From Bryum argenteum (taxonomy: Eukaryota > Streptophyta > Bryopsida > Bryales > Bryaceae): 64,000 nt of DNA. A program made the translations under genes and the position numbers. A model generated the notes under the pieces. The model saw only the letters and a list, made by a program, of their open reading frames with translations. It had not been told where the DNA came from and made no database searches. Shown piece after piece: positions 16,344 to 41,880 of this stretch (its first letter is position 1; every line of letters starts with the position of its first letter). The stretch covers positions 31,784,101 through 31,848,100 of the forward strand of contig CM073321.1 in NCBI GenBank assembly GCA_037043015.1, given 5' to 3'.

Positions 16344-16362
16344 CAAGGTTGTCATACCGGGC
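16344..16362 (+). repeat. hAT terminal inverted repeat, left
   Basis: CAAGGTTGTCATACCGGGC. The GC-rich stretch just inside repeats CCCGCCCG-type words, which recur near the right end and may serve as subterminal transposase sites. Confidence 0.9.
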
Positions 16363-16545
16363 GGGCACGCCGCCCGCCCGTCCGTCCGCCTTGTCCGTTA
16401 GATAGAGCTTTCGCCCGCCCGATACGGTCAAATCTCTGTTGACTTTTAATTTAGGTAAAAAAACAAGGATGTGGCAAAGGTTTGGGTAAAAACCAAGCGA
16501 CTTGGCCGCCACGTACACACGACGTACGCACCACGTAGTCTGATG

Positions 16546-16795
16546 ACAGGGCGGGTGAAAGGGGTTAGAGGCGGGTAAGGGGGGGTCAGGGGGGGGGGCC
16601 AGGGCGGGGGCGGGGGGGGGGCTAGGGCGGGGGTGGGGGGGCCAGAGTGAGGGCGGGGGGAGGAGGCCAGGGCGGGGGCCAGGGCAAAGGCGGGGTAGGG
16701 GTGGGCCAGGACGGGAGCGTGGGGGGGCCAGGGCGGGGGCGGGGGGGGAGAGGGGGAGGGGGAGGACAGGTGGAGGGGGGGCGGGGTTGGGCCCA
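16546..16795. repeat. G-rich subterminal tract
   Basis: A tract of G-runs broken by CCAGGGCGGGGGC-type words on the plus strand. It lies between the left terminus and the promoter of the first cargo gene. Runs of three or more G occur every few bases, so quadruplex formation is plausible. Confidence 0.8.
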
Positions 16796-16842
16796 CCCTC
16801 CTTTAACTTTTCCACACTCCAAGTGCCTCCACTCCCCTCCCC

Positions 16843-16850
16843 TATAAAAG
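16843..16850 (+). promoter_or_regulatory. TATA box of the kinase-like cargo gene
   Basis: TATAAAAG just downstream of the G-rich tract. A pyrimidine-rich leader of about 130 bp follows up to the candidate ATG at 16985. The leader differs from that shared by the RING and transposase genes. Confidence 0.55.
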
Positions 16851-16984
16851 CCAAGTTGATTCATTATTCACCTCACTCCGCTAGTTGCCAAGCACTACTT
16901 CTTCATTGAGTTAGTGTGGGCACTTGGCAGGGTGTTTTTTCAACACGAGGGAGGAGTTTGTGCTGTTTTTTTCTCACATTTGAA

Positions 16985-18657
16985 ATGGAGGGTGAAGGGA
17001 GCCAAGGTTTGAGTATGCGACACGGAAATCAAGATTTGGAAACCCCCTTGACCGTCCTGAAGAAACAAAGGAAATCTCAAAGAAGACAAAATCTACAAAC
17101 CCGTCTTCCTCGGGATCACAGAAAAGAAAGGGAAAAAAGAAAAAAAGTAAAGGAGCAAAAAAGAACAATTTGATCTTGCCATAGGAGGAAGAGACACCAC
17201 TTATGCCAACCGAGGAGTATCTTGAATTTGCTCGACGGAATGGTATACATTTCTATAAGATATGAACTATGCCAGATTTGCATAGGTCTAACCTTGGGGC
17301 GAATGAGGAAAGATTTAACAATTTGTGTCACGATCTTCACCAATACCTGGAGCGCTGTTTTGAAAACAATTACGAACTTTGTGATTGGACCAACTTCTAC
17401 GACCACGGTGCATGGTTGGACCTCAGAGTGGTAGAGTTGACTACCAACACCGTAGACGCCTGGACGTATATTTCGGGGAAGAAATTGACAGACAAGAGCA
17501 AATGGACAAATGAAGATGACAAACTAGTTTCAAAGCTAGATTTAGTAAAAAGTTTTGGTCAATCCTTTTCGAAAGCTCGTGGGAAGAGGAATGAGAGATG
17601 GAAATTAAAAGCCGAGGATGTTGTTATGTCTCATTGCAACAGTGGAACTTTCAAGTGGCTAGAATCAACCGTTACCATGGTATCTATGCCATGACAACGT
17701 ATCTAAGGTGGATATGGGAAGGTTACTAAGGTGGTGCTTACAAAACTTCAACATATTCCTAGTTGGATTCCATTCGCGCGTAAACAATTGACGAACGTCA
17801 AGAACGAGAGGGAGAAGCGCATGGCAATCGTAAATGAGGCGGATGGATGTCCAGTAAAGCACCCTGGAATCATCAGACTATCGTACTTGCATCCTAAAAC
17901 AATGGATGGATTTTCGCTATGGCGGAACGGAGGTAGCTTCAAAGATTTTGACATCCATGTCAATCAGAAAATCCCAAATCACTTGGAATACAACGACATT
18001 CCAAAAGAGCGAAACTCAGGGCTATCCGATATACAACTAAGTTGGGTTGTAACATTCCGTAAACGACGACTTGACTTGGAATTGTCGTTGCTTGTCATTG
18101 TGGAAAAGTGTCATAAACTCAATTATCTGCACAACGACATTACTTCAACCAATGTTCTATTGCAATTCGATGATTTGAAACCAGATACGGTTTACATCGG
18201 GCTTTGTGATTGGGGGATTTCAAGTCGAGTGGTGGAACAAGCGCCATCCAAGTATGGATTTGCAAAGCTAGAGGAATTGAATGAAGAACGCAAACAGCAA
18301 AAATTTGTGGCATCGGAATTATGGTTTTTGTATGGTCCACGCGGGTCTGAAAATCCTCTTGAGGTTATGGAATGCAAACACATATATTCCAAGGCAGCCG
18401 ATGCATTCTCCGCCGGGTGGTTAGCACAACGCATTTGGCAAGAAGAGTACGATATGAAGTACTTTATGCCACACCGCACAGACCGCGCCATGAATCACGA
18501 GCACCTCAATTTCAAATTAAAAGCCCTCCAGGACCCGGACGTGTCCAAAAGGTTGACCGTGGCCGATGTTAAAGAGGCCTTGGAAAAGTATCCATTTAAT
18601 TGGACCATGCCCATGTGTTGTTTCCGTAATTCAGCTATTTGGTTTAGCGAATCTTGA
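16985..18657 (+). pseudogene. Protein-kinase-like cargo gene (damaged)
   Basis: The long frame 17269-18657 reads as a eukaryotic protein kinase fold. A glycine-loop-like GGYGKV starts at 17707. An FARKQ segment follows and could hold the ATP-anchoring lysine. Then come an HPGIIRL segment, the catalytic loop LHNDITSTNVLL (HND in place of HRD, about 18127-18165), CDWG in place of DFG near 18205, and a DAFSAGW helix. The catalytic Asp and Asn are kept. Upstream, 16985-17190 codes a Lys/Arg-rich N-terminal region in a shifted frame. In-frame stops lie near 17180, 17265, 17692 and 17704, the last just before the glycine loop. The divergent HND/DWG signature does not point to a familiar plant kinase family. 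Its role in the element is unknown. Confidence 0.7.
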
Positions 18658-18752
18658 AGTTAGCGTGTGCCTATTGTATGTAGAAGGATTGCATGGATAA
18701 TTACAATACTATATGTACTCCCCATTTGTGCACATACATATAATATACGCAG

Positions 18753-18897
18753 CAACTTCTCTTATTCGATGCATTTGTACATCTTCGTATGACATATTTA
18801 ATTGCATTGTTTTGAGTTCGGTGCACATATTTATTGGTTCCATACCTTGCCAAATACCACTCAACCTATGCATGAATTGCTCTGTAAATACCACGAA
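18753..18897 (+). repeat. 3' flanking module, copy 1
   Basis: Downstream of the kinase-like gene. It closely matches 40918-41096 downstream of the transposase gene, sharing TTATTCGATGCAT, GACATATTTAATTGCATTG and CAAATACCACTCAACC in the same order. It may carry polyadenylation signals for the cargo cassette. Confidence 0.8.
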
Positions 18898-19335
18898 AAA
18901 AAAATTTAATAAACTCAAAAAAAAAATTTAAAAAAAATTAACAAAAAGTAAAAAATAAATAAAAAAAATAAAAAAATAAAGAACGCCGTTACCTTCCTTA
19001 CTCTACCCCTATTCCTTAATCCCTCTCCTAACCTCTCTACACTGCTCCTACCCCCTCCACTCCCGCCCCTAAAAAATATTTAAAAACTTTTTTAAAATTT
19101 TTTTTTAAAAAAATTTAAAATTTTTAAAAAAGATTAAAAAAAAAGTTTAAAAAAAATTAAAATATATACCAAACCCCCTTTATCCCCCTACCCCCCCTAC
19201 CCCCACTAACCCGCCCCTAATCCCCCCCTTACTCCCCTCTAACCGGCCCCTAACCCCCCCTCCCCCCGCCCTAGCTCCCCCCCGCCTCCGCCCTGGCCCC
19301 CCCCCTTCCCCCTGGCTTGGTGTTAGCGTCTGTTG
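18898..19335. repeat. A/T homopolymer and C-rich tract between cassettes
   Basis: Runs of A and T alternate with two C-rich patches (about 19000-19075 and 19170-19315) of CCCCTACCCC-type words on the plus strand. This tract precedes the promoter module of the RING gene. The same kind of tract precedes the transposase promoter at 29395-29870. Confidence 0.75.
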
Positions 19336-19339
19336 GGTG

Positions 19340-19499
19340 GGGGGTGTCCAACCACTATATAAGAGGCGGACTCCCCATTTGTAACCCGCCCTTCCTAGCT
19401 CCCAAGATTCACTTCTCTTCGTGAGGGTTGGATTGGGGATTGGGGAGGGCGTTTGAGCACATTTGGGGGAGGTTTTAGAATTTTTTTTCTAAAACAATG
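19340..19499 (+). promoter_or_regulatory. Shared promoter/leader module, copy 1 (RING gene)
   Basis: It contains TATATAAG at 19356-19363 and the leader words GTAACCCGCCC and CTCTTCGTGAGGGTTGGATT, and it ends at ATGGCGAC. It is collinear and nearly identical with 29886-30049 before the transposase gene, including the first codons (Met-Ala-Thr). A shared promoter suggests the RING gene and transposase were expressed under common control. Confidence 0.85.
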
Positions 19500-21853
19500 G
19501 CGACACCAGGTGCGATCCGCAAGGAAGAAAAAGACAAAGAACAAGTGCGACAAGGAAAACAACAGCGGGCTCGTCTTCATGTGTTAAATAATCCTTTAAA
19601 ATTGGCATTCAGAGGCTGGGAAGATGTGGCTGACCCATGGGATTTTGACCATGCAAAGCAATACATTGAGTGGTGCCACATCGACAAATCCTTCCAGCCT
19701 GAACGCCATGTTTTACACTTGAGAAGCAACAAGGCCAATTTGCGCTACTGCACCAACCCGGAGTTCCTTTCCCGATGTCTTCAAATTTATTAACTCCTTT
19801 ACTCCACGAAGTTACCAAATAAGAATTAGGTCAGGTTATATTTAGAGCGCGGCGTTCATGGGTAGATCATTTTAAAGAAGAGGTTCGATTGGTCTACTCT
19901 GAAGGGTTTAGAAGGCAAGGCTCGAGCACCACGAGTACAAAATGGTTTCCGTGGCTTTGGAATTTGGGCGGTAGAGGATCCTGGGTGGTTTCCCTTGTTC
20001 GACAGACCTACGGAATTGGACCCTCATAACCATATGTCTGGCTCCCCGCCTGATTCCGACTCCGTTGGCTCCCACGAGATAGTTTTATCTCAAAGCAAAA
20101 CGATGGCAAGGAATAAGCGGAAGAGGCTAGCTCGATCATTAGAGCCTATGCCCATGGCTTCATTGGCCCAAGTAATACAACCAGTTCCGGTGCAGCTACT
20201 TCCCGACATAGTAGATGTGGAGATGGTTCATGCAGTTGGTGGAAACATTGAGCCCCAAGAAGTGGAGGTTGTTGTGAACGGGGGCGTGCCGGATGAAATT
20301 CTACTTGTAGATTTGTCTGTCGAGATGGAGCATTTTGATACAAGAGAAGGCCAGATTCAGCAATTGATGGGAGAAAATCAACGCTTGAAGGAAGAGAATC
20401 AACGGCTGAAAGAGGACATGCGGAGAACTAGCGACGAGATCTCATCCAAGCAACGACGTATCATGGAGCTTGAGGGGGCCATGGCAAAGGGGAAGAGGGC
20501 TTGTACATCTCAAACTCGACCTATTACATCGACTAGTCCAAACGGATTGGTCATAGGAAGTGTGCTTGACTCCTTGGCATTCGGTAATGCAGATTTCAGC
20601 GAAGTATTAGGCTCGACTGCAACACCCCTTGAAGTTGATTTGGTAGATGTTCGACCAGATAATGAGGTATTAGGCTCGCCTCCAACACCCTTTGGAGTTG
20701 ACTTGGTAGATGTTCGACGAGATAATGTGGTCTTGAAGAGTCGAATGAATCAGATGGCTGAGCAATACTATCAGTGGTAGTTGACATACATTTTATCCGT
20801 TGCCAAGGGTGACCAAATAGCCGAGGAGTTGAAGAAGATCAACAGGACATGGAAGGATCATAATCAAGAGCGGGTATTTGGTTTGACATCATGGGCAATT
20901 GTAGACGAGATGTTTCCGGACGAAGTGCGAAAAAACCGGATGGAACAATTGACTGGGCCCAATGCGAGTGGGATTTTGAAAACACGATGGACATCAAGAA
21001 AGCAACCAAATTGTGGTTAGCACTTGCAACGTTCATGACGGATGGTGAAAATTGTGCTACAAGTTGCAACCCCTTTGGACCTGAAGGAGGATTCTGCGTA
21101 GGCACTTGCCGCCACGTGTTTCATCCGATTTGCCTGATTGGCTTCATTGTTGTTTGACGACAATGTCCGCTATGTAAATCTCCCTTCCACAAGCGCTTGT
21201 ACAACCTTTTTGGATTAGAGGATTACATGCCACCGCATTGGGAGTATAATGAAACCAATGCTCCTAAACACAAAGGGAAATGGGGAGAAGACTTGGTATG
21301 GAGTTGGAAATTGTCTCGCACTTCTATAGAGAAGCAGTTGGCTGCCCTGGAATTTGGCTGGGAAAAGGATCCGGAGGCAATTACGAGGGCGTGCGATCAT
21401 TTGATTCCATCAAATGTCTCAAATGCCAATGGCAAGCGAGCTTTCTTCTACCAGGTTTACAGCGGATATTGGGACGAAGCGCACAAGGAGTTTCGATTTG
21501 GGATTCATCCAGAAGGGCTAAAATGGAAGTCGGATGGAATGATGTATTCGTCGGAAGAGCGTTCCGACCGCGATTACGAGATCAATTGGGCAACGGATGA
21601 ATCCAACTGAGCAGAACTTTTACACCACCGAAGCATTGATTTTCTGATGGAACAACATAGTCCCCAAACCGGACGCATGCTTCGAGCCATGCAACAATCA
21701 CAATTCCCGAGGGATATTCTTGAAGAAGACGGGCCTGCGAGGAGGACTCGATCAGCAGTTCGTAGACTTCAATTGGGCGGGGGTGAAGATTTGCCAGAGG
21801 GTACGAATGATGCCGAGGCCGGCCCAAGCGGTACAGCGATGGACGAGAACTAA
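19497..21853 (+). pseudogene. Coiled-coil/RING-H2 cargo gene (damaged)
   Basis: It starts at the ATG of the shared leader (MATPGAIRKEE). A charged N-terminal region follows, then a strong coiled coil at about 20340-20480 (heptad-like QRLKEENQRLKED). A 63-bp segment is directly repeated at 20601-20726. A RING-H2-like finger lies at about 21050-21180, with CATSC, then CRHVFHPIC and CPLC ligand pairs. A Trp-rich conserved tail and an acidic C-terminus end at 21853. A RING finger would suggest ubiquitin ligase activity. Frame changes near 19905 and in the A-run near 20930, and in-frame stops near 19818, 20778, 21155 and 21608, show the copy is inactive. I do not recognise the full-length family. 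Confidence 0.7.
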
Positions 21854-22134: not shown

Positions 22135-22331
22135 GGATGTCAATCCAAAGTGAGAGGGGAGAGAGGGGAAGTGATGGGGTGAGGGGGGAATGAGGGGGGG
22201 GGGTGAGGATGAGTGGGCGGGTGAGGGGGAGTATAAGAAAAGAAAGGGAGGAGTGAGGAGAGAAGGGAAGGAAAGAAGAGAGAAGGGGAGGAAGTGGAAG
22301 AGGAGTAGAATGATGGTCAATCCAATCATTG
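22135..22331. repeat. Purine-rich flank of palindrome, copy 1
   Basis: G/A-rich tract ending in GGAAGTGGAAGAGGAG. A closely similar tract precedes the second palindrome copy at 28640-28770, so the two form one long direct repeat around the minisatellite. Confidence 0.65.
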
Positions 22332-22333
22332 GA

Positions 22334-22402
22334 AATCCAAACATTCCCCCACTATATCCGGGATACTCCAAATCCTGGCTTTAATGAGGGAATGTTTGGA
22401 TT
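22334..22402. repeat. Palindromic repeat, copy 1
   Basis: The arms AATCCAAACATTCCC (22334-22348) and GGGAATGTTTGGATT (22388-22402) are perfect inverted repeats around a 39-bp spacer. A near copy in the same orientation lies at 28778-28846. It may be a tiny hairpin MITE or the broken termini of another element. Confidence 0.8.
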
Positions 22403-22489
22403 GTTTCTCCATTAATGATGCTTGTTTACCAAACATAAGATTAAGGAGAGAGATGACAAAAACCTTTGCAAAAATTTTCAAAAAACTAC

Positions 22490-24791
22490 GTGGGGTGGGT
22501 GAGATGGGGAGGGGCGGGTTACGGGGAGGGGCGGGTGCTCGTGGGGTAGGGCGGGTAACGGGGGGTAGGGCGGGTAAAAGGGGGTAGGGCGGGTACAGGA
22601 AAGGTAGGGCGGGTATTGGAAAGATAGGGCGGGTATTGAGGGGTAGGGCGGGTACCGGGGGTAGGACGGGTGCCGGGGGGTAGGACGGGTACCGGGGGGT
22701 AGGACGGGTGCCGGGGGTAGGGACGGGTACACCGGGGTAGAGCAAAGGAGGTAAGGTGGAGTGAGGGGTGTGAGTGTGAGGGGGTGAGGTGGGTGAGGAT
22801 GAGAGTGGGGTGTGGGGGGGATGAGGGTGGGGTGAGGGGGGGTGAGGATGAGAGGGGGTGAGGATGAGAGAGGGGAGAGGGTAAGAGAGGGGAGTGACGG
22901 TGAGAGGGGAGGGCGAGGGTGAGAGGGGAGGGGAGGGTGAGAGGGGAGGTGAAGGTGAGATGGGGAGGTGAGGGTGACGGGGGGTAGGGGCGGGTACCGA
23001 GGGGGGAAGACGGGTGCCGGGGCGTATAGCAAAGGACGTAAGGTGGAATGAGGGGAGTGAGTGTGAGGGGGTGAGGGGGGTGAGGATGAGGGTGGGGTGA
23101 AGGGGGGGGGGATGAGGGTGGAGTGAGGGGGGGTGAGGGTGAGAGGGGGGGAGGTTGAGAGGGGGTGAGGATAAGAGAGGGAGAGGGTGAGAGAGGAGAG
23201 TGTGGGTGAGAGGGGAGGGTGAGGGTGAGAGGGGGGAGTATGGGTGAGAGGGAGGGTAAGTGTGAGAGGAGGGTGAGGGGGGGTAGGGCGGGTACCTAGG
23301 GGTAGAGCAAAGGAGGTAAGGTGGAGTGAGGGGAGTGAGTGTGAGGGGGAGAGGAGTGAGGGAGGGGATGAGGGTGGGTGAGGGGGGATGAAGGTGAGGG
23401 GAGGGCTAAGGGTGACAGGGGGGGTGAACATGAGAGAGGGGGTGAGGGTGAGAGAGGGGAGTGAGGGTGAGAGAGGGGAGTGAGGGTGAGAGGGGAGGGT
23501 GAGAGGGGAGGGGGGGTGAGGATAAGAGAGGGGAGAGGGTGAGAGAGGAGAATGTGGGTGAGAGGGGAGGGTGAGGGTGAGAGGGGGGAGTATGGGTGAG
23601 AGGGGAGGGTAAGTGTGAGAGGGGAGGGTGAGGGGGGGTAGGGCGGGTACCTAGGGGTAGAGCAAAGGAGGTAAGGTGGAGTGAGGGGAGTGAGTGTGAA
23701 GGGGTGAGGGGAGAGAGGGAGGGGATGAGGGTGGGTGAGGGGGATGAAGGTGAGGGGAGGGCTAAGGGTGACAGGGGGTGAAACATGAGAGAGGGGGTGA
23801 GGGTGAGAGAGGGGAGTGAGGGTGAGAGAGGGAGTGAGGGTGAGAGGGGAGGGTAAGGGTGAGAGGGGATGAGGGTGGCGTGAGGGGGTGGTGAGGGTGA
23901 GAGGGGGGGTGTGAGGATGAGAGAGGGGGTGAGGATGAGGGAGGGAGTGAGGGTGAGAGGGGAGGGTGAAGGTGAGATGGGGCGATGAGGGTGAGGGGGG
24001 GGAGGCCGGGTACCGAGGGGATAGGGCGGGTGCAGGGGGTAGGGCGGGTGCCGGGGTAGAGCAAAAGAGGTAAGGTGGAGTGAGGGGAGTGAGTGTGAGG
24101 GGGTGAGGGGAGTGAGGGAGGGAATGAGGGTGGGGTGAGGGTGAGAGGGGGGTGAATATGAGAGAGGGGGTGAGGGTGAGAGAGGGAGTGAGGGTGAGAG
24201 GGGAGGGTGAGGGTTAGAGGGGGGTGAGGGTTAGAGGGGAGGGTGAGGGTGAGAGGAGAGGGGAGGGTGAGGGGAGGGTGAGAGGAGGGGGGGGTAGGGC
24301 GGGGTGCCGGGGGTAGGGCGGGTGCCGGGGGGTAGGGCGGGTACTGGGGGGTAGGGGCGGGTCACCGGGGGGGCGGGCGGGTCTTGGAGGGGTAGGGGCG
24401 GGTAACGGGGGGTAGGGCGGAGGACGTATGGTGGAGTGAGAGGAGTGAGGATGAGGGTTGGGTGAGGGGAGGGTGAGGGTGAGAGGGGTGGTGAGGGTGA
24501 GGGGGGGATGAGGGTGGGGTGAGGGGATAGATGAGGGTGGAGGTAGGGCGGGTACCGGGGGGTAGGGCTGATAACGGGGAGTAGGGTGGGTAACGTAGGG
24601 GTAGGGCGGAGGACGTATAGTGGAGTGAGAGGAGTGATGATGAGGGTTGGGTGAGGGGGAGGGTGAGGGTGAGAAGGGTGGTGAGGGTGAGGGGGGGGGA
24701 TGAGGGTGGAGTGAGGGGGTAGATGAGGGTGGGGGTAGGGCAAGTACCGGGGGGTAGGGCTGATAACGGGGGTAGGGCGGGTAACGGGGGG
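22490..24791. repeat. G-rich minisatellite array with higher-order repeats
   Basis: Two kinds of unit alternate: ~20-bp GGGTAGGGCGGGTACCGG units, and G/A tracts of GTGAGGGTGAGAGGGG type. A landmark GTAGAGCAAAGGAGGTAAGG recurs at about 22735, 23020, 23293, 23652 and 24055, giving a higher-order period of roughly 270-400 bp. The open frames on the minus strand through this block are proline-rich artefacts. The CACTA element interrupts the array at its right side. Confidence 0.85.
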
Positions 24792-25114
24792 GTACACTAT
24801 AAGAAACCTGCGTTTTTAATGATGTTGTAAATGATGTCTAAAAAGACATCGTAGACATTAATTCGGATGTCTTATAGACAATAAGACATTCTAGACATGA
24901 CAAATGTCTAAGCAGACGTCTAAAAAGACAGGAAAATGTCTTAAGATCGAAGATGTCTTAAGGTAATTTTAGAAGGGTAAAAAGTGTGCCACGTAGGTGC
25001 CACGTAGATGACACATCAGCTTGAATTCAACGGGCAGTGCCACATGGGGATGAAATTCATCATGATGTCGAATTTTACATGGTCCCATGAAAGATGACAT
25101 GGCGGCGCCAGAAT

Positions 25115-25268
25115 CCCACGTGGACCCGGAAAATCCGACGTGGCACTCGGGAAAATCTGACGTGGCACCCGGGAAAATCCGACGTGGCACCCGAGAATAT
25201 CCGACGTGGCACTTGAGAATATCCGACGTGGCACGCGGGAAAAGTTGACGTGGACTTGGAAAAATGAC
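25115..25268. repeat. 22-bp tandem repeat with ACGTGGC cores
   Basis: About seven units of 22 bp, each with GACGTGGCAC followed by CGGGAAAATCC-like sequence. The cores sit exactly 22 bp apart at 25137, 25159, 25181, 25203, 25225 and 25247. ACGTGGC is the core of plant ABRE/G-box sites bound by bZIP factors. Confidence 0.85.
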
Positions 25269-28064: not shown

Positions 28065-28067
<3 letters not shown>

Positions 28068-28099: not shown

Positions 28100-28100
<1 letters not shown>

Positions 28101-30049: not shown

Positions 30050-30875
30050 CCAGCACTAGCTGACAACGGAGCTCATGTCAAAATTGGTTCACACAAGAGA
30101 ATAGAGCAAAGAATTATTATGAGGGTTTACATGATATACCAAATTGGCCACTAGAGCCTTAATCCTTTAGGCTTGAATGCGATGGGAAGCCAACGGAGGA
30201 CAACAAGAGAGCGGAATTTGTGGTATGAATTTCATGATGATGGGAACATTACTTGTGTTTTTTGCAACACAACATTCACCTACAAACGAATTCGAGCATT
30301 CATGCACCTAGGCTACATGCCGAAATCAGAGAAGAGTGTGTGTTTCCTTGTACTGCATCGTGTTCTCAGCAGGTTTGCAAATTGTGGGGGCATAGTTCCC
30401 GCCAGAATGAGTGATGAAGACATGTACGGTGGAGATTCTACTATAGATGGTCTCTCCAAGGGAATTCCTAGTGGTTCTTTATGCCATGTAGGTGTTGATA
30501 CAAACACAGGGGTTGGAGTGAGGGGTGGAAGTCCTCATAGAGGAGGCCGGAATGCATGCGTGGTAGAGGGACATGACAATCCACACTCCATGTCAGCTAT
30601 CCAAGGCGCATGTCAGCTAAACGAGGTCCGTAGCAGTACGCCACCGTAGCATGGAGGAATCTTTGAACACCGCGAAGAGAAGAGAATTGAATGAAAAGTG
30701 GGCAGATTGTTTCTATAACGCAAATATCCCATTCAACGTGGCCAGGAACCCGTTTTTTACTGAAGCGGTTTTAGCTACTTCTATGGCGAGGTTTGACTAA
30801 ATTCCTCCATCTTATCACCAATTCAGGACTAATCTCATAGAACCCAGCAAATTGCGAGTCGAGAAGGAGATTGAG
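30043..30875 (+). pseudogene. hAT transposase, 5' part (leader, BED-like finger, start of DUF659)
   Basis: The frame opens at the ATG of the shared leader. At 30209-30330 it reads WYEFHDDGNITCVFCNTTF and on to a His-containing helix, which fits a BED-type DNA-binding zinc finger. From 30651 a frame with FYNANIPFNVARNPFF and PPSYHQFR is characteristic of the DUF659 segment of plant hAT transposases. The gene is broken by frame changes and by stops near 30061, 30158 and 30798. It is then split by the Mutator-like element inside the codons for KEIE. It resumes at 37869. Confidence 0.8.
30866..30875. repeat. Mutator-like element target duplication, left copy
   Basis: GGAGATTGAG, repeated exactly at 37869-37878. 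It lies in the coding sequence of the hAT transposase. Confidence 0.85.
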
Positions 30876-31221
30876 CATGATTGCTACGATGCGTGCAGTG
30901 AGCAGATTTCCATGAGCGGTGAGCAGACTTTTATGAGCGGCGGGCAGATTTTCCTGAGCGATTTTCCATTTTTAGAGGGAAGTTTTGACTCAGTTTGGGC
31001 CAAATTATTTGGACCACTTATGAGGGTCCTTCAATTTACTTAGAATAAATTAGATGTTGCTCCAATTTGGGTGGATTATGTAACGATTTGATGACAAAGA
31101 GTTTTGGAGAAGGAGTGTGTATAACCGTGCTTTAGCCTTTAGGGTGCCTTTGGCCGTGAAATGTTACGGTTTTAAGTTAGAACATCTTTTACTATGTTTT
31201 CTGGTAATTAGGGCTAACGTC

Positions 31222-31241
31222 ATATATATATATATATATAT
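31222..31241. repeat. TA microsatellite
   Basis: About ten TA units near the left side of the Mutator-like element, downstream of the minus-strand gene. Confidence 0.8.
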
Positions 31242-31270
31242 CGTAACTAAGAAATTCAGGGCTGACGTCA

Positions 31271-33157
31271 TTAATGTATAATATAATTTACGTAAAGGTG
31301 GGTCCCTAGAATTGCGACCTTAGTATTCTGACTTGGAGCCCTGCATAAGTCCTGGATTTGCATGATTTGGTCTCGCCCCTCGGGTTCATAATCGACGTCC
31401 ACCCTCAACGCCTTGAGAGCACCAACTACTTGGGTTTGACAATCTTCCAAAAGCTGCAAGAAAAGGAGAAGCAACGTTCCATAAGAAGCCACACATTCCA
31501 GGGTCCAAATTCAATTGCCAACATTTACCTGTGCCCAAAAAGTAGCTTTGTTCAAGAAGGAATTGAATTGCTCGTCGGCAAACTTCTGTTTTGGGAATTT
31601 CAATTCCTCCCTAGACTTCCGGTTCCAGTTCCATCTGTCCAACCAGGTAAGCTTGGAGTTGATGTCTATTGCAGAGGTTGCAAATGCGTACAGCTTCTCG
31701 ATGAGCATCTCGGAGAGATGGAAGGTCTCGTAATGCTCCTTCACCTTCTCGATGAACTTACCTTCGTACTTCTCATCACAAATTGGAAGAAGCTTCTTCA
31801 GCTCCCGTTCTAAAGTACCTTTCTTGATTGTTACATGCTTGTGGATGTAGTCGTTAATCCCGTGCCCTGTCGATTCGTCCCTATTTGGAAACATCTTCTC
31901 CACATTCTTTGCTACAGTATTAGCAGCCTTTGATATATCACTCTGCATTTCACAAGAAAGGTGTATTAGTGGCGTTACAAAAGTGTATGTTGGCAGGGAC
32001 TCATATGTGATAACTAACCTGGTAGAGGAAGTTTGTAAGCCCAGGAATCGTAAGCAAAAACCAAGTCCGAACACTTTTGGTCTCTGCTTTGTTACAATCA
32101 GCCTCTGACACCAAGCCCTTGAAATATTCAAAAGGCTTTTTTCCAACTGCATACAGTTGTTATATCTTATGCACAAGATTCTCCTTCACATGGTTGTTTT
32201 GATTGCGCCTGAAAATCCATCAACGGCAAGCAATAAATGAGAAAACGGATTGAGTTAAATTTCAAATTGAAATGGTTGAAAGGATTATGAAGGTAGAAAC
32301 TTACTGATTTATGTCATACAAGATCATAAGTGTGTCCATAACTCTACCCCTGACGTCCAGAATGATGCAATCAACGGAAAAATGCCACTCAATGTCATGA
32401 GCGTGCTTTTTGTTGATGATTGGTAGCCAAGCGTGCAACCGGTGATTACCATCCCAAACATTAAACATTTTGTTCGAGAACTGTTGCCAAATTGGACCAT
32501 CTTTCAATTTCGCTTCAAACTCGTCGTTAACAGCACGCCAGTTGTTGCTCCACAACAGCATGTCCTCCTCAGTTACGTCATGGGACTTGGAGTTGTCGTC
32601 TTCTAAAACAACGTAGAAGACAGCCGCGCCCTCAATGTATCCTCCATTGACAAATCGACTTTGAAAAAGTTCGATATCATTCTTCATTGCTGGTCTTATA
32701 GCTGTCAGTCCCTTCAGCCTACAAAGAGGAATGTTGAGACATGACTTTTGTTTGGGCTTCAAACGAAGCGCGTCTATCCGGGATCCAGTGTGAACAGCCT
32801 CCTGGCTTACAAGATTGTCTAATCTCTCCTCGACCTCAGCCTCTATCAAAGGAATGCTATCGTGATCCACCAAACTCTCCTCAGCTGGTTGGGGTCCTTC
32901 ATCGGGATGTCGACCCTCAACCACTATCTGTTCAAAAGAGCGCGACTCTTCAGCAGGCTGTCCGCATTCAACAATGCTCTCCTTAGCGGGACCTGTGCCC
33001 TTATCTAGCCTCGAGGTTAATGACATCTTCGCCAGTCGATCAGCATCGTCCACGTCATTTGTATGCGTTGATCGAGTTGCAGGTCGATTCTCATGTGCCG
33101 GTGTGGCGAAGGTTGTGTTCTTCAAAGCCGACTCCCCTTCCAACTGACTAAACTCAT
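31271..33157 (-). CDS. MULE accessory gene with DGNHR motif (spliced, nearly intact)
   Basis: Exons on minus with good GT-AG borders: 33157-32305, 32208-32019, 31942-31529, 31453-31271. The phases join cleanly, giving about 545 residues from the first exon listed. An additional 5' exon must exist upstream (33.2-33.3 kb), but its join is unresolved. The first exon has an acidic, Glu/Pro-rich N-terminal part, then FVNGGYIEGAAVFYVV and VWDGNHRLHAWLPII. The DGNHRLHAW core resembles the DGxHR loop of ParB/sulfiredoxin-like folds, which can bind nucleotides. The C-terminal half is helical and charged. One in-frame TAA lies in the second exon. It lies opposite the transposase gene, like an accessory gene beside a mudrA-type gene. 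The function is unknown. Confidence 0.6.
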
Positions 33158-33349
33158 CTGTTTGAACACAGAATCGGAAGAATAGTCAAGAAAACATATA
33201 CAAAAAATGAGTTACAAATCTTATCCTATATCGTCTACTTTCATTTGATGAAGCTCACTCCAGGGAGGGCAGGCAATGGGAGCTGCTTCATAAGGTAAAT
33301 AATAGTTCTTGGGCGCAATGTCAAAGTTGGGGTTTGATGTTGTCGCCTC

Positions 33350-33830
33350 GGTATGCTGTGTCGCGACGCGCCCTTTGCTTTGTCTCGACACGTCCTTCGC
33401 TGCCTTCGACGGCTGGTAGGGGCAAGGTACAGCCCCAGCGTGGTAAGGTCCCTACGGGTCGCGGGACCTCATCAGGCGCCCGACCCCCCCACGCCAGCTG
33501 CGTGGGGGAGTAAGGATGCGGCCCAGAGCGGCGCTGGGGTCGGGGTAGGTGAGCGAGCCGGGGCCCCATCCGGCACCCGACCCCCACCTACATGGCCGAT
33601 TATGGCTGGGAGGGGCGAACGTGTCTCCGAAAAGCGAACCCAGGCCTCTGGCTTTGAGGCGCCGCGGTGGGGAGAGTGCCGGTCCCAAGACCCCATCGGC
33701 CACCCGACCCCCACCTGACTGCAACGCAGCCTTCACCCACCTCAAGCTGCGCCCACGCGTTGGGTTGCGGCAAGTGAGGGTCCTTGGAGAGCAGCAAGCG
33801 CCAGACTCCTTCCCAGATTGCAAATTCACC
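33350..33830. other. GC-rich divergent intergenic centre of the MULE
   Basis: A CpG-rich block between the two divergent genes. Overlapping frames on both strands are composition artefacts. It probably contains the 5' ends and promoters of both genes. Three degenerate copies of the ATCGGGTACCCGAT-type palindrome begin here. Confidence 0.5.
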
Positions 33831-34417
33831 TAGAAAAACTTCAAATTATTTTTAGAATCGCAACAAATCGAATAGAAATACCCTATCGGGTACCCGATGG
33901 GAAATACAGATCAATAGTTCTCCATTTAATTTTGACATTTATAAATACAAGGACATTCAACAAAGGTTTTCGTTATCATATTTGAAGATTTAGCGAAATT
34001 ATTAGGCAAACTTACCTCGTTTGCATTGATGATCTTATCCTAGCTATGAAGAAAAAATCAATCGAAAGTCCCCATCGGGTACCTGATGGGGTCAGAGTTT
34101 CCAAATAGTAGGCATGACAAGCGCGACAAAATATCATCGAGGAGATGCAAGATTCTTCTTCTTGCCCCCGTCGGGTACCGGATGGGGTCTTAGGTGCCAT
34201 TGGGTGTCGTGACGGGCGCTGCTTCAGTGCGCAAAACATCCATTTTATTCTCATCGGGTACCCGATGCAGTGTTTAGGGCTCATCTGGGAGGCCTTGGTT
34301 ACCATGTCGAAGTGATAGAGAATTGGCTTCAAACGATTCAACTCACTCTTCTGTGATGCGGTTTACGTGATGCGGCATAAGTGAGTGTCAGAGGCTATGG
34401 TCCGGCACCGGATGGGG
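33471..34417. promoter_or_regulatory. Cluster of eight ATCGGGTACCCGAT-type palindromes
   Basis: Copies at 33471, 33564-33585, 33691-33712, 33881-33901, 34070-34091, 34166-34187, 34251-34270 and 34397-34417. Best copies have CCC(C) and GGG(G) flanks, so the full dyad is about 20-22 bp. They lie between the divergent genes and are irregularly spaced by 80-190 bp, so this is not a simple tandem repeat. It looks like an array of sites for a dimeric DNA-binding protein, perhaps one of the element's own products. Confidence 0.7.
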
Positions 34418-34895
34418 TAAGGGCCGTAAATTCAAGGCAACCACGCTGTAGCCTATGTTGAGTCCATTCCAAAACGGTAAACAACGTCGTGATCGGACTT
34501 AAAAACGGAGGAGTTATGGACGGATGAAGTTTTGTATTTCTAAACTTCATCCGCAGATGGCGCATCTGTCTTACGTCCAAATCGCAAACTTGAGGTGGTT
34601 TCGGAATCCTCGTGCTGTACCCTACAGCGTGGTTGAGATTTTTTTGCGTAATCGAGAGATCCTCTATGCGTCCACATGTGCAACTCCAAAGAAACGACTC
34701 TTGAATGAGGTGGAATTTGCTAACGAGGGTCCGTCCACGGTGTTGCCCGGGACCTCTGGATTCCGGAATGGTTTAATTCGCCGCGATCGGACACCCTATG
34801 GATGCGATATTGAAGGATGAAGTTTTTGACAAACCATGGGGTTTTTAAGGTTCATGGCTTAGAGTCACACTATCACACTTGCATGACACGGAGCT

Positions 34896-34984
34896 ACACC
34901 GGTGTTATTAGAGAGGGCTGCACCGGTGTTACAGGGATCATGGTCACACCAACACACCAATAGTAGACAGTGCTACACCGGTGT
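34896..34984. promoter_or_regulatory. Three ACACCGGTGT palindromes before the MULE transposase
   Basis: ACACCGGTGT occurs at 34896 and 34975, and CACCGGTG at 34921, each preceded by GCT or GCTGC and followed by TTA. They lie just upstream of the first recognised transposase exon. Confidence 0.5.
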
Positions 34985-37136
34985 TACAGGGCGGGTTACA
35001 CTGTCAACACACCAAGGTGATGACAATTGCCATTTGCGACATGCAATCTGAGACTAAGGACGCACAATCATTTCTTTGGAGGATGCTTAACAAAGTTATG
35101 GCGCGTCATGGTGTCGTCAACGTCAATTTCAAAGGTTTCATGGCTGACGGCGCTCAAGTCAACTGGAACGTTGTTTGAGAGATTTACGGGACGGGAGACA
35201 AGACTGTATGCATGAAAGAGAAAGAGAGATTGTGTCTACTCCACTGGACAAAATGCATGCACAGAATAACAAACTTATACGTACCCCGGTGCTCCGCGAT
35301 GAGCATAAGCGAAGCTGTACACAATATAAGGATGCAATCAATATGGACGAGGCCGAGACACGCTACCTTGCAATTCGGTTGTGGTGGATGTCAAGTGAAG
35401 TTGTTACAGATTTAAATTTTCCAGCCATGGAATCTTGGCTGGCGCGTTGGCATTTTCGTTACAGGCAATGGAGAGGCTTCATGGATATTGTAAGCGTGCT
35501 TTAACTTTTGTTTCTGTGATATGCTTAAATATTTCTCTCAATGTACCATCCACCACGGCACTTTCCATTCTTCTCATACCTCTACTCTGTAAACATGCCT
35601 CCCTTGTGCCGCCACTCCCATAATTCATTTTCCTACACGGACCACATATTCTTGTACATGCATTTGTTTAGATTTACGTAACAGTTGGTTTTCCAATTCC
35701 AACAGTCGAAATGACCTAATTTGACTTTATGCAGGACCTTACTGATGAAGAAAAAGCTGAAATGCCAATGTGCAATTTGGCTGAAACCATCCACGCTGCG
35801 TGGTCAAAACAGTCCAGTAAAGACGTTCAGGATATTTTTGAAGCATCGGTGGACAATTTTGTCAGGGCATTCACGCAATGCACACGTTACAATGCTTTTC
35901 TACACGGTAAAAGCGGTGGTACAGGACTGGACAAGGAGGTACTGCACTTCAGGCTCGCAGGTCGAAGTAGGAATCTAAACACAATGTATAAAGCCATGGA
36001 AGCCATCCCTGGTGCTAAGGACTTCCTAGTTGCGGACCCTAATTATGCTGGCGAGGAAGTTTTTGGATCAAGTAAAAGGCGTTTGGAAACGCAACCTGGT
36101 GCTGATGACGATTCCCATTGGTTCGACAAGGTTAACTTCTCTCAGCCAAAGTACTCCAAAAGGAGAACACGCTCTCAGGGATCTCCTTCTACTTCTATTC
36201 AATTAGATGACGTAGACGTAGATGATATTCAAGCGGCTGCGCCAGTTCCAACTGCACCCATTGTGCATGTCACTGAAGTCCAAGAAGATGATTGTGAGTA
36301 AAGAAAAATTGCATATCTGTCGTGTTCCTGCAAATAGCAATCCGACTTTTATTGGAAACCGGAGCACATCAAAGCAATGCCAGCAAAAGATCAATGGGCC
36401 AGCAGGCCCAGCACCTACATTCCATGGAACTCGTCATGATCGCCCGAAGAACCTTGACATCAAGCAATTTTTCTATTTCTGTCCAGATGATCTGAACAGG
36501 TGTGCTAAAGGCCCCCGCAGAAGGTGGATTACGGATCTAATTCTTGATGTCCCAACGGTTTGGCCTCTTTAGAAAGGAACAAATCTAACTATGTGTGAGG
36601 TCTTGGCACTTCAACAAGCGGAATTCCAGCTACAACAGAAACAACCAATGCCGATGGAGCGTCAGTTTGGATATAACGTTGCCATTGCGGATCAAATTGA
36701 AAGCATCCCAATCCCAACACAACCAGATAAGTACATGACGGTGCGCAACGGCAAATCCTGCAAGCGTTTCGTCACTCGTAAGAACTCGGAGAAGCAGCTC
36801 GCAAGGTGGGAGTCGGCAACGCTTCTAGACGCAGAGATGGTCCGGATCACCCTTATTCCTAACCCAGGTATCGGAGCAGTCATTGATCTGAAATCAACCA
36901 GCGGGTCAGAGGCAGCGGAGTACAAGCTTACGATAGGATCATTCTCTAGCTGCACTTGTATTGATTTCACAGATATGGCAGTGCACCACAAAGGGCGTGG
37001 AGGATGGTATAACTGCAAGCACCTATGCTACATTTTCCGCATGGTTTGTGGATTCCGACTCCAAGACGACCACCTCGTGACGGCCCCCACCTTAAGCTTC
37101 AACAAGATAAAGCGCGTACTGCTTGCAGGGATTTAG
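34981..37136 (+). pseudogene. Mutator-like transposase with SWIM finger (lightly damaged)
   Basis: The first exon part (34981-35489) holds IAICDMQSETKDAQSFLW, FKGFMADGAQVNWNVV and ERLCLLHWTKCMHR, which fit the MULE transposase core. The Asp in FMADGA is a catalytic candidate. An intron at 35490-35734 joins in phase. The next exon ends near 36293 before a strong GTGAGTAAAG donor. The last exon ends at 37136 and carries the SWIM-type CTC...CKH finger at about 36957-37025, typical of MULE transposases. There is one stop near 35176, one near 36570 and one frame change near 35330. The 5' end is not resolved. It encodes the enzyme that would move this element and its deletion derivatives. Confidence 0.75.
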
Positions 37137-37339
37137 GATAGGATCTCAGTACAAAATTAGTAGTTCTTGTTCACCAAGGTCCACGTCAAAGCCTTTGGTG
37201 TCTAGACTACCAAAGTGGTTTAACCAACATCCCACTTTTAAAAGTAAATGTTGTGACTTCAGATTTCTTTAATCATGAACATAGCTCACAAACATTTTGG
37301 ATGCACCACCTTATCTTGAGTTTCGTTTTGTTGTTCAAT

Positions 37340-37460
37340 TTCAACCCTCGCTCACTCTCACTCTGTTCACCTTCGCTCACTCTCACTCTGTTCATCCTCG
37401 CTCACTCTCACTCTCTTCACCCTCGCTCACTCTCACAGTCTCACTTTGTTGACCCTCTCT
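37340..37460. repeat. CTCGCTCACTCTCACTCTGTT tandem repeat
   Basis: Four to five units of about 30 bp sharing CGCTCACTCTCACTCT, located between the transposase stop and the right end of the Mutator-like element. The strand is pyrimidine-rich. Confidence 0.75.
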
Positions 37461-37868
37461 CACTCTGTTCAACTTCTACCCTCGCTCTAACGACTAACGT
37501 CACCGTCAGAAGCATCACCCTGTCACAAGTATCTTACCCCTTGCACACCCTCCTTGCATGCCACGGCGCACCATGTCTAGCACGGCGGGCCCGCCTGTGT
37601 GTGGAGCGCGCCCCCGCCTGCACAGTGAACTCGCCCCCGTGTGAAGTGAGGACGAGTCATACCATTCCAGTTCATCGGCCACAAACGATAAATTCTTCAC
37701 ACGGTAATGGGTTTATGCAATGAACCCCCAACCCTATAGCCGTCACCTTCTATATTGATGATTTTGGTGTACTCTGCTTAATTTCCACTCAAAAATCTGA
37801 TCATTGCTCTTGAAAATCTGCTCACCGCTCACCACTCACTGCTCACCGCACGCACCGACACCACCTTG

Positions 37869-40571
37869 GGAGATTGAGTCAAGAATTGGATTTGCAAAAT
37901 CCGCGTATGGGGTGTCCATATGCACCGATGGTTGGGACGATGTTAATCGTAGGCCCCTTATGAATGTGATGACGACGTGCCCACTTGGAGATGTATTTCT
38001 AGAAAGCATTGACACCACTGGGCAGACAAAATCTGCGACGTATATAGCAGACAAGCTCAAAGTATTCATTGAGAAGGTGGAACCTAAGAAGGTGACTGCA
38101 GTGTGTACGGATAATGCTGCAAACATGCTTGGAGCAATGAAATGTATTATGGAGGAGTATCCATGGATTTTCTCGCAAGGATGCATGGCTCATGCTTTGG
38201 ATCTCTTATTGGCAAAAATCGACATCTTCAAAGACCTTATCGAGAGGGCAAGGAAGTTGTGCCATTATATTAGAAACCATCATGCAACAATGGCAACATT
38301 TTGTGAATTGAGTCCTAAACTCTCAATCCTAGTGCCGGGGGAGACGCGCTTTGCATGCAATATGTTGATGATGGACTGACTCGTCAAACTCAAGCCTGTC
38401 CTAGAGGCACTAAAAGACCATCCCCGAGTTCAGAACTATACCAATACACTGAGGGACAGAATAGGAGGGGAGCGGACAACCACCGCCATGCGCAATATCG
38501 TGCGCACCATTGAGGATGGGGCCTTCTGGCTACGGTGCAAGAATTTTCATTTTCATGACGGAGGAGGTTTTTAAAGCATTACGCGTGTTTGATGGCCGAG
38601 AACCCAAAATGGGTAAGGCATGGCTCATACTACTAGGATTGCATCAACATGTGACTTCATTCAAGGATCCACCATTTAGCGTCCGACGAGATATTGCAAC
38701 AATATTGGAGGATTCATTCAAAGTGAGGAGGGCCATGTGTTTTACGGATCTTCACTATGCAGTTGCCCTCTTGAATCCATATCTCAAGGAAAATGCAGCG
38801 CTAAAGCAAGATGGCGTAGCCCTCCATGCGCTATATCGTGTAATTCAAAAATTAAAAGACGTGGTGGGCGTGAAGTATGAAGACGTCATATCCGAATTAC
38901 AAGAGTATGACGAAGGTACAGGGCCATATAGCCCGGACATTGCCTTCAACATCCGTGCAATGAACATGCTCCCCCATCAATGGTGGTATAGGATTGGAGA
39001 TAATTACCTTTCCAAAATAGCGGTACGCATATTGTCTCTCACATGTTCAGCTAGTTCCTGTGAGCGTAATTGGAGTGCTTACTCATTTGTGCACAATAAG
39101 AGCTGAAATTGGTTAGCCCCAGAAAAGGCAGAGACATTAGTGTATATCTATACCAATGGCCGTGTATTACAAAAAAGACCAGGGCCGGAACCACTTTGCT
39201 GGTATGAAGACAATGTCAACTCAGTGGATACAGACCCAGATGCCCTCGGCCCAGTTCCGGTAGATGAGCCCAACCGAGAGTTCATAGAAGAGGAGGACAA
39301 TAGTAATATGGAAGCCAATTGGGAAGGTAGAGAATACTAACCAAGTTTAGATCTCTGGGCTGGAGGTGCGGACCTTCTAGGGGAGAGTAGGGAATATTAC
39401 GGTGAAAACGATGCAATGGACGATGACCAAGAGCCAATCCGTTGGGGTGCTGGAGCATGGAGTACAAGTCCTACTCGTCGCATTCCATCGCCAGACAATC
39501 GCCCCGATGTCGGCATCAATCAAGCGTGGATTACAGTATCGGATTCGGAAAACGAAGATTCAGATCATGGGCTAGATCGTGAAGCAAATCAAACCATACC
39601 CGCTCATGATGTTAACTACAACCACCCCTCTTTCGGAAACAATGAGGACAATGAGCAGAACGAGGGAGAAGATGGTATAATTGGTACTATTGGAACTTCC
39701 AATACCTATACAACAATTGTAGATCATTTTGAAGATGTTGCCCTGCGAGAAGTGGGAAATAGCCCAAATGCATCAAGATTGGGAGGGATTGGGAAAACTA
39801 TTACACCCGTTGGTGCGCCCCAATGTCTTGATCCAAATCTCAGTAGGATTTACGTTGCATTCGAATTCACCGATGATGTTGACCCAATACACGCAGATAT
39901 TCCGGTCTCCAGAACAATATCTGGGCTAAATACACCTACACCAAATACTAGTGGAGGAGCAACAAATGCTAGTGTAAGAGCTTCCCAATCTGATGGGTCC
40001 CGTGGGAGGCCTCCATCATTCAATGGGACAATACCACCAAGCACGTGGAAGAAACGGAGCTAGAGGGCATGGGGGAACTAACACTCCTAGCGGAAACATA
40101 GACCGCAGAGGGTTTGGAGGCTCAACATCCACTACAAAACGGATACGGCCTAGAGGCATTGCAGAGACTCTAGATGGAGGGGGACAAAATGTTGGCGATG
40201 TCTTGTCTTCCAGGCCAAGTAGACGTTCTTCATTAGGAATAGAGGGGAGGAACCTAAACACGGTAATTGAACCATTCGTGGACACATATGTTCGTGGTCG
40301 CACTTCATCAACACCAGCATTTGTTGTTCCTAGAGGACCGCCGGTGAATTCGGATGGGGAGTGTCCTAGAGCAAAGAGACACAAGGTTATTAGACTTGAG
40401 GAAAACCTATACGGCGAAAAAAAAGCCCTTCTTCGCAATGAGTCTACTTGTTCTTCAAGTGGTAGCGACGACGATGATGATATTGAACGTGGCAACAACA
40501 ACGACGGCGATGACGATGATGGTGTTCTAGAGTGCGATGAGGCGCCAGATGATGATGACGTTGTTATCTAA
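37869..40571 (+). pseudogene. hAT transposase, 3' part (DUF659, hATC dimerisation domain, acidic tail)
   Basis: It continues directly from 30875. The DUF659/catalytic part has GVSICTDGWDDVNRRPLMN and AVCTDNAANMLGAM, a likely pair of catalytic Asp segments, followed by GCMAHALDLLL. The C-terminal domain at about 38950-39180 reads WWYRIGDNYLSKIAVRILS, then CSASSCERNWSAYSFVHNK and a LAPEKAETLVYIYTNGRVL helix. These are diagnostic of hAT dimerisation domains. A long hydrophilic tail ends in an Asp-rich stretch at 40571. Stops lie near 38377, 39104 and 39338, with frame changes near 38510 and 40050. It belongs to the giant element by orientation, promoter and position. Confidence 0.88.
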
Positions 40572-40917
40572 GTCCTGTTCCGAGATCCTAACATGGAGGG
40601 TACATGCACTGAATGGGTGCATCGATCAAATCGTTTTAATAAGTAGAATGGACTTATATTATCTATTCGGGTATTTTAGAACTTCTCATCATTATTGTAG
40701 TCTTTATTAGACACTATTATTAGTCTATTATAGTGCATAAGTTTCTTAAAAAAGAAAAAAAAAATAGAGAAGTTCAGATTATGTGTTGTGGGAATATATA
40801 TAATTTCCTTATATCTACGTTGTATCGTTATTCACTATGAATTATATAATATCATATTATTATTCATGATTTCTACTTTTTACTACATTACATTTGCCTT
40901 ATGTATGAAAAATAAGG

Positions 40918-41096
40918 CAATTTCTCTTATTCGATGCATGTGTACTTTGTCATATGACATATTTAATTGCATTGTTTTTATTTGAGTGCACATACTTACT
41001 TACTCCCACCCCTCCCCACTCTTTCAACTGCTCATATGCATACTTTGCCAAATACCACTCAACCTATGCATGAATCAATTTGTAAATACTACGATA
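40918..41096 (+). repeat. 3' flanking module, copy 2
   Basis: It matches the module after the kinase-like gene (18753-18897), with a short insertion near 41000. Its place after the transposase stop supports a role in transcript ending. Confidence 0.8.
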
Positions 41097-41194
41097 TTTC
41101 TATTTAAAGAAATTCTCAAAAAAATAAAATAAAAAACTTCTCCAAAAATTTTAAAAAATAATTAAATGAAAACGCAACAACCACCCATACCTTT

Positions 41195-41665
41195 TCCCCT
41201 AAACCCCCCCTTACTCCCGCCCTACCCCCCTGCCTCCGCCCTACCCCCCTAATCCACCTTATTCCCTCCCTTGCCCTACCCCCTCTCCCTCGCCTCCTAC
41301 CCCCATCCCCCCGTCCTACCCTTCGTCCCCGCCCCTACCCGCCCGTCCCCGTCCCCGCCCTACCCCCGCCCTACCTCCCCTCCCCCGCCCTACCTCCCTC
41401 CCCCCCCTACCCTCTCTCCCTACCCCCGCCCTACCCCTCCTCCCCCCCCCCTACCCCCCCCCTCCCGCCCTACCCCCCCCCCCCCCCCTACCCCCTCTCC
41501 CGCACCGCCCCCCCCCCTCTCCCGCGTTGCCCCATCGCCCTCCTCCGCCCTGCCCCCCCCCCTCCCTCGCCATGCCTCCCCTCCTTTTCTCCCGCCCCTA
41601 CCCCCCCACACTTGCCGCCCTACCAAAGTTCACCCGCCCCTTCTAAATTCACCCGCCCTAAAAAA
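41195..41665. repeat. C-rich right subterminal tract
   Basis: CCGCCCTACCCCCC-type units on plus, grading into TTCACCCGCCC units next to the right end. It is the reverse complement in kind of the tract in the third copy at 63440-64000. The proline-rich frame here is an artefact. Confidence 0.85.
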
Positions 41666-41861
41666 AGTTTACCCGCCTTGGCACAACTTCACCCGCCCCG
41701 ACGCCACGATGGACTTACACGTCACATCCTACGTGGCTTTTTATTGCAAAGTTTCTTACCCATGACAAAATTACACGCCTCCTACTATCAAGGTGGGCGG
41801 GCATGCCCGTCCGTCCGGGACAACTTGTACGTTCGTTGTGTCCGCCCGATTGCCTCAACAC

Positions 41862-41880
41862 GCCCAATATGACAACCTTG
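41862..41880 (-). repeat. hAT terminal inverted repeat, right
   Basis: Read inward it is CAAGGTTGTCATATTGGGC. GTGGTTAT follows it at 41881-41888. Confidence 0.9.

Follow-up and report, generated by a model that had tools for sequence, protein, structure and literature searches.

A giant hAT transposon with kinase and RING-finger genes in the moss Bryum argenteum

We analyzed a 64,000-nucleotide stretch of the genome of the moss Bryum argenteum (C1:31784101-31848100, C1 being contig CM073321.1; the whole stretch is called the window, and positions given without a contig refer to it) and searched the assembled genome (258.8 Mb in 25 contigs) for relatives of a large unit found at 16344-41880. 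This unit is probably a decayed copy of a multi-copy family of giant hAT transposons that encode a kinase, a RING-finger protein and a transposase, that move by cut-and-paste, because the transposase is of the hAT superfamily, and that use the kinase and the RING protein as helpers. The kinase and RING genes are standing parts of this family. hAT elements are usually small, with a length of a few kb and one gene; the unit in the window spans 25537 bp, of which about 14.9 kb remain after subtraction of two nested elements (3665 and 6993 bp), as had already been computed in a preliminary description of the window made from the sequence alone. That description had proposed one giant hAT, and the matched termini, the 8-bp duplication, the transposase and the related empty sites reported below uphold the proposal. 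It had also stated that it knew of no described plant hAT with this gene set; in our literature searches (titles and abstracts), no description of a hAT element with kinase and RING genes was found.

Termini, target duplication and insertion site

The left terminus of the element (16344-16516, plus strand) consists of a terminal inverted repeat (TIR) and a subterminal part with CGTCCGTCCG, and the right terminus lies at 41736-41880 (plus strand). The TIR CAAGGTTGTCATACCGGGC at 16344 and the reverse complement of the right end at 41880 are identical at 17 of 19 positions, and the two ends are flanked by identical copies of the 8-mer GTGGTTAT (16336-16343 and 41881-41888), so that both border features noted in the preliminary description were recovered. 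A target-site duplication of 8 bp and short TIRs are features of hAT membership. Within the window, the 10-mer CGTCCGTCCG is confined to two positions, 16379 and 41808, each close to one end of the element, and the 13-bp terminus, with up to two mismatches allowed, has no internal match between 16345 and 41867.

Two further family members were recognized in the window and support the borders of the large element. One, at 1706-2045, is only 340 bp long and contains no gene, but it retains both termini and is flanked by an 8-bp duplication of its own (GTCAATTA); the left terminus of the large element is 86% similar to its left end (1706-1878) and the right terminus 86% similar to its right end (86% also when the latter is compared with 41736-41882), and it seems to have arisen from the large element by deletion. 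The right end of a third member (63268-63930, 76%) stands on the minus strand in 63268-64000 with a GC-rich array, and this copy runs off the window.

To reconstruct the site before insertion, the flanks of the element were joined with one copy of the duplication kept (302 bp), and 40 of 166 candidate sites in the genome were scored. The 41 matches listed comprise 38 across the junction, two that represent the window's own flanks and one second piece. The top match, C8:17467129-17467434, is 90% similar over positions 1-302 of the query, and the best four matches are 84-90% similar over 301-302 bp. Four sites were fetched and aligned base by base: three continue across the junction with the duplication present once and 0 to 2 bases different, and in the fourth 8 additional bases stand at the junction. 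Because the joined flanks match 38 uninterrupted repeat copies, a unit with these borders was inserted in a dispersed repeat. The preliminary description had named an empty site in a related accession as proof of mobility; the empty sites found are related uninterrupted repeat copies elsewhere in the same genome, and a same-locus empty site from another accession is not among them. The repeat itself is seen in the window at 16200-16343 and 41889-42046, and at 38 other places among the matches listed.

Recurrence of the three genes in two lineages

Genome searches yielded at least 84 matches with the kinase P0001 (80 of 1001 candidates scored), at least 108 with the RING protein P0018 (59 of 1709) and at least 80 with the transposase P0043 (54 of 1068). 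Because only part of the candidates was scored, these lists are lower bounds, and the gene counts below refer to the matches listed; the window's kinase is among them, the window's RING and transposase genes are not. The terminus, with up to two mismatches, has 744 genome matches (368+376, left and right ends counted; reversed control 0+1).

The copies fall into two lineages, here called A and B. Ten loci were fetched, nine of lineage A, selected for closeness of kinase and transposase, and one of lineage B. In eight of the nine lineage-A loci, kinase, RING and transposase follow each other in one order and on one strand. Five of the nine have both termini and an 8-bp duplication, at a length of 12.8-15.5 kb; the duplication is perfect in C8:7483301-7496444, C10:15913634-15926427 and C3:2458264-2471090, and has one mismatch in C1:42675916-42691393 and C10:16004131-16017470. 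No empty site for these other lineage-A copies was present among the fetched sequences. Between the RING and transposase genes no further gene was seen in three copies (no plus-strand frame >177 aa). The paired termini with 8-bp duplications and the joint recurrence of the three genes, both of which the preliminary description had proposed to look for, were thus encountered in lineage A and, as described below, in two elements of lineage B.

Linkage of the genes was compared with random placement (500 draws, for which the sizes of five contigs are rough approximations). A kinase lies within 25 kb of 21 of 28 lineage-A transposases (random mean 1.06, highest draw 5), upstream on the same strand in 19 of these pairs and upstream on the other strand in two. 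Similarly, a kinase is found within 25 kb of 20 of 26 lineage-A RING genes (random mean 1.02, highest 5) and in all 20 cases precedes the RING gene on its own strand; 8 of the 26 are accompanied by a transposase (random 0.36), and 7 of the 28 transposases have both partners. The exact left-terminus sequence occurs within 2.5 kb upstream of 11 of 46 kinases on C1 (random 0.11). C1 makes up 17% of the genome and has 46 of 64 lineage-A kinases and 22 of 26 lineage-B transposases among the matches listed; it may be a sex chromosome or a heterochromatic chromosome.

Lineage B is diverged from the queries (transposases about 50% and kinases about 30% alike). The element C7:18348134-18371856, picked for its transposase alone, is 23.7 kb long, is flanked by the duplication CTCCACAT and contains a kinase on the minus strand followed by RING and transposase genes on the plus strand, the latter with an open frame of 1073 aa. 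A second element of this layout, C1:4647573-4667388, measures 19.8 kb and is flanked by the duplication ACTTATAT; its terminus on the kinase side is imperfect. The joined flanks of the C7 element align without interruption to two related stretches, one that lies inside the C7 element (599 bp, 92%) and one inside the second lineage-B element (593 bp, 90%). For the lineage-B terminus, 523+514 genome matches were counted (both ends; control 0+0). Among the 100 exact matches listed, all on C1, adjacent termini stand 15-30 kb apart in 12 of 34 plus-minus pairs vs 1 of 33 minus-plus pairs, and 10 of 15 plus-minus pairs 12-35 kb apart enclose a lineage-B kinase, RING or transposase match. As to the genes, a kinase accompanies 2 of 26 lineage-B transposases (random mean 0.28, highest 3) and 6 of 33 RING genes, always upstream on the opposite strand (random 0.34, highest 3); a transposase accompanies 7 of the 33 RING genes, always downstream on the same strand (random 0.65, highest 4). 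The C7 element also contains a 548-aa frame (L030:9625-10000 into L031) that resembles the RING protein in its N-terminal domain and lacks a RING; more such pieces are present in this element, so that the domain has been reused.

Homologues, constraint and possible roles of the accessory genes

For the kinase piece, 16 homologues were found, six of them of 522-542 aa. All seven relatives of at least 395 aa (P0001-P0004, P0006, P0007 and P0012) keep the catalytic Lys, the HxD Asp, the Asn and the DxG Asp, the motifs taking the form HND and DWG, and judged by these residues they would be active kinases. The AlphaFold model of the kinase (pLDDT 77) matches solved kinases. The RING query gave 26 homologues, 18 of them of 750-930 aa (7992 best candidates scored). 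A RING pattern with seven ligands required and the fourth position loose is present in 25 of the 26; the fourth position is Cys in P0019, P0024 and P0032 and Asp in P0017, and the relatives appear to have the zinc ligands of a RING-H2 (C3H2C3) finger. For the transposase, the highest scoring named relatives come from Physcomitrium patens (38%) and Ceratodon purpureus (37%) and stand above those of flowering plants, a protein from a metagenome-assembled genome (MAG) labelled as Bacilli aside. One kinase and one DUF659 protein in nr, both partial, are labelled as belonging to a Bacilli MAG and are presumably plant DNA in a bin. Scans of IMG/VR with kinase P0001, the terminus and the kinase and RING alignments gave no match.

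A RING relative linked to a terminus was found in a contig filed as cyanobacterial MAG (L001, CADCWO010000051.1). Its RING open reading frame (1918-4323) is preceded by a GC-rich array and a TATA-like box, and about 500 bp after it stands TTGACAACCCTG, with CGTCCGTCCG upstream of the latter. When the 3' part of this contig was resampled 3000 times with an order-1 Markov model, the terminus motif (one mismatch) appeared 17 times and both features together 0 times, the motifs having been chosen after inspection of both sequences. At 1-285 and 816-910 the same contig has a palindromic repeat and a repeat copy whose orientation is opposite to that of the sequence adjoining the putative terminus on its outer side.

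Selection was estimated from the ratio of nonsynonymous to synonymous divergence (dN/dS), each gene set being compared with one reference copy (two comparisons, with lineage B, were saturated). The ratio was 0.31-0.57 for RING (10 comparisons giving a value), 0.59-0.88 for the transposase (nine comparisons) and 0.45-0.79 for the kinase in 11 close comparisons; against a diverged stand-alone kinase it was 0.19-0.24 (12 comparisons, dS 0.8-1.0). The stand-alone kinase C1:4136441-4138102 (L003) is intact, with a dS of about 0.8 or more from the element copies. It was considered as a further full element and ruled out, as no RING gene, transposase or matching terminus was found in 17.5 kb around it; it may be a domesticated copy, a host source or a remnant. 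Between the copies at C8 and C10:16.00, divergence is 1.9% in the kinase part and 18.7% in the transposase part; the histories of the two parts differ between copies, as if they were exchanged modules.

Helpers are favoured over passengers, a choice that the preliminary description had left undecided, by the recurrence of the genes in both lineages, by their constant order in each lineage, by dN/dS values under 1 and by divergent homologues that are intact; that the two genes help the element to spread is likely on this comparative evidence. The DUF659/hATC transposase would bind and cut the CAAGGTTGTCA termini and join them to a target cut with an 8-bp stagger. Because of the recurrence, the constraint and the type of enzyme, the transposase, or else the host factors by which the element is silenced, may be phosphorylated by the kinase and ubiquitinated by the coiled-coil RING protein. 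We lean slightly towards a wider reading, in which giant three-gene hATs are an old plant group with kinase and RING E3 ligase as fixed accessories, an element-encoded system of phosphorylation and ubiquitination that controls the transposase or disarms host silencing, retained in at least two lineages that differ in gene orientation and present, at least for the RING part, in another organism.

Several observations weigh against a helper-bearing giant hAT family. One fetched lineage-A locus, C1:20.55, has no RING gene, and four of the nine lack matched ends with a duplication (C1:12.58 has both ends and lacks a matching duplication, C1:21.23 and C1:18.64 have the left end only, and C1:20.55 the right end only); in none of the nine are all three genes intact. 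In lineage B, the C7 kinase contains a stop, and gene linkage among the matches listed is modest. The hATC domain of the window transposase scores 21.3 bits (E 2.3e-4) and misses the Pfam cut-off of 21.4 by 0.1 bit. Among the nine shorter kinase relatives, P0009 has Asn at the position of the catalytic Lys, and others are cut. The AlphaFold model of the RING protein is poor (pLDDT 63), and its RING, closest to RNF165 and other E3 RINGs, matches them at an E value of 0.33 or worse. For the kinase, dN/dS in close copies is only moderately lower than 1, the comparisons are non-independent in that a single reference serves them all, and part of the constraint of about 0.2 may be the stand-alone kinase's own, as that gene may be a host or domesticated gene. 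In the cyanobacterium-labelled contig, the RING gene adjoins the terminus and does not stand in mid-element as elsewhere, and the 4.9 kb contain no kinase or transposase, so that the link there is one of RING to terminus only.

Other explanations of the two genes seem less probable. They might be host genes captured by chance, as in a Pack-hAT, and amplified as useless passengers, which we regard as improbable. The preliminary description had named termini without genes, together with genes elsewhere, as the pattern of chance passengers, and parts of it do exist: short copies such as 1706-2045 share the termini and have no genes, and the one intact stand-alone kinase among the matches listed could be a host source; many listed copies, moreover, carry stops. 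Pack-TYPE elements, however, hold fragments of host genes found elsewhere, whereas here the genes are whole, the RING and transposase cassettes have a promoter-like segment in common, both lineages have both genes (kinases about 30% vs mostly about 50% alike to the query), with the kinase inverted in one of them, RING has a dN/dS of 0.31-0.57, and a plant name is attached to not one of the homologues (16 kinases, 26 RING proteins), most of which are nameless and come from short contigs. A selfish or host-directed cargo with no action on transposition, for example one that ensures survival or addiction or that benefits the host, is rather unlikely. Any pathway of the host might be the target of a kinase combined with a ubiquitin ligase, an action on the transposase is hypothetical, and the 1.9% vs 18.7% divergence fits exchangeable modules; on the other side, both genes are present in the window and in every one of the seven large units that were fetched and have two ends (lineage A contributes five, in which, because the units were picked for kinase-transposase closeness, only RING is an independent find, and two of lineage B), and promoter-like or 3' segments are common to their cassettes and the transposase cassette.

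That the 25.5 kb are a chance pile-up of separate transposons between unrelated hAT ends is hardly credible. Two other transposons are indeed nested inside, and the common flanks of the cassettes look as if each had once been separate, but the duplication is perfect, no internal match to the terminus exists, and the related empty sites together with the three-gene units at other sites, which have duplications of their own, led us to reject it. A fusion of separate hATs into one was also rejected, as internal termini are absent, though the common cassette flanks leave room for an old duplication or fusion.

With Ac/Ds the family shares the 8-bp duplication, short inverted termini, the hATC dimerization domain and gene-less, internally deleted relatives; it differs in its size (13-24 kb compared to a few kb with one gene), its kinase and RING genes and a transposase of ~1100 aa with a long acidic tail. 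Plant DNA transposons that encode more than a transposase include VANDAL with VANB/VANC, CACTA with TnpA and PIF/Harbinger with a Myb-like protein; to our knowledge, these belong to other superfamilies and none of their accessory proteins is a kinase or a RING protein. Fungal Starships resemble the family as large eukaryotic elements with gene cargo; they use another recombinase, are much larger and have variable cargo. Pack-TYPE transposons are described as non-autonomous carriers of captured host coding DNA (PMC8903248); they likewise place transposon termini around gene sequence, but in the present family complete genes are found again and again, together with the transposase, in both lineages. 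The nearest large multi-gene hAT-type unit found is ToxhAT of fungal wheat pathogens, which is reported to be a unit of ~14 kb with eight genes, a nested second transposon and 74-bp termini, for which a target duplication was not found and which is conserved between three species as a transferred unit (PMC6737239). Size, several genes and the nested second transposon are thus common to both, but ToxhAT is fungal, whereas the present elements belong to a plant family of many copies in which 8-bp duplications and one set of genes recur.

As kinase and RING have been retained in two lineages, it seems that DNA transposons can be equipped with signalling enzymes of their own, and the family offers a direct route to asking how such an element handles host silencing. 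Families of intronless kinase or RING genes may be transposon genes, which calls for care in annotation.

Layout and decay of the window copy

The three genes of the window element stand on the plus strand, as the preliminary description had indicated with its three cassettes, but all of them are broken. The kinase gene (16985-18657; intact 552-aa homologue in the C8 copy) has stops at 17182, 17263, 17692 and 17704 and a frame change near its start; Pkinase is matched at E 9.4e-7 with 28.9 bits vs a cut-off of 31.7. The RING-finger/coiled-coil gene (19497-21853; intact 742-aa homologue in the C3 copy) has stops at 19791, 19827, 19863, 20778, 21155 and 21608 and several frame changes; its RING is readable only across the in-frame stop at 21155, and its first two ligands are spaced as Cx3C vs Cx2C in 25 of 26 relatives. 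The transposase gene is split into a 5' part (30182-30875, plus strand; placed by tblastn of homologues, with the MGSQRR start of the intact 1155-aa copy) and a 3' part (37879-40571, plus strand) with DUF659, hATC and a long acidic tail. It is interrupted by stops at 30798, 38377, 39104, 39338 and 40061, by frame changes and by a Mutator-like insertion. DUF659 is matched at E 2.6e-29, and hATC reaches 41.3 bits in the closest relative, P0043, and 28.1 bits in lineage B. Of the BED/DUF659/hATC transposase proposed earlier, DUF659 and, at the threshold in the window, hATC stand, whereas Pfam (E up to 1) gave no BED match, neither for the window nor for the first 343 aa of the intact copy; a CxxC finger is visible by eye in the N-terminal part. 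An intact 1155-aa transposase frame, as autonomy would call for, is found in C10:15913634-15926427 and is missing from the window copy. Because all three genes are broken, the window copy is decayed and dead; with its own genes broken and two transposons nested inside, any further movement would use the proteins of other copies.

G- or C-rich tandem arrays stand upstream of each gene. The 3' flank of the kinase cassette (18723-19055, plus strand) is 66% similar to that of the transposase cassette (40891-41248; E 2e-34). A C-rich array (19184-19316) precedes the promoter-like segment of the RING cassette (19341-19449, plus strand, with CACTATATAA), which is 92% similar over 109 bp to its counterpart in the transposase cassette (29886-29994, plus strand, with CACTATATAA), itself preceded by a C-rich array at 29436-29853. 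A G-rich minisatellite block (22149-24794) resumes at 28460-28742, and a nested CACTA element (24795-28459; termini CACTATAAGAAA, duplication GTA) lies inside this array. Another C-rich array is present near the right end (41216-41585).

The nested Mutator-like element (30876-37868), which splits the transposase gene, is flanked by a 10-bp duplication (GGAGATTGAG). A SWIM-like CxC...CxH stretch was recognized in it by eye, with no significant Pfam match, and it contains two minus-strand frames (31514-33185). Beyond the right border, frames at 46384-49074 resemble, by eye, a decayed copia-type retrotransposon.

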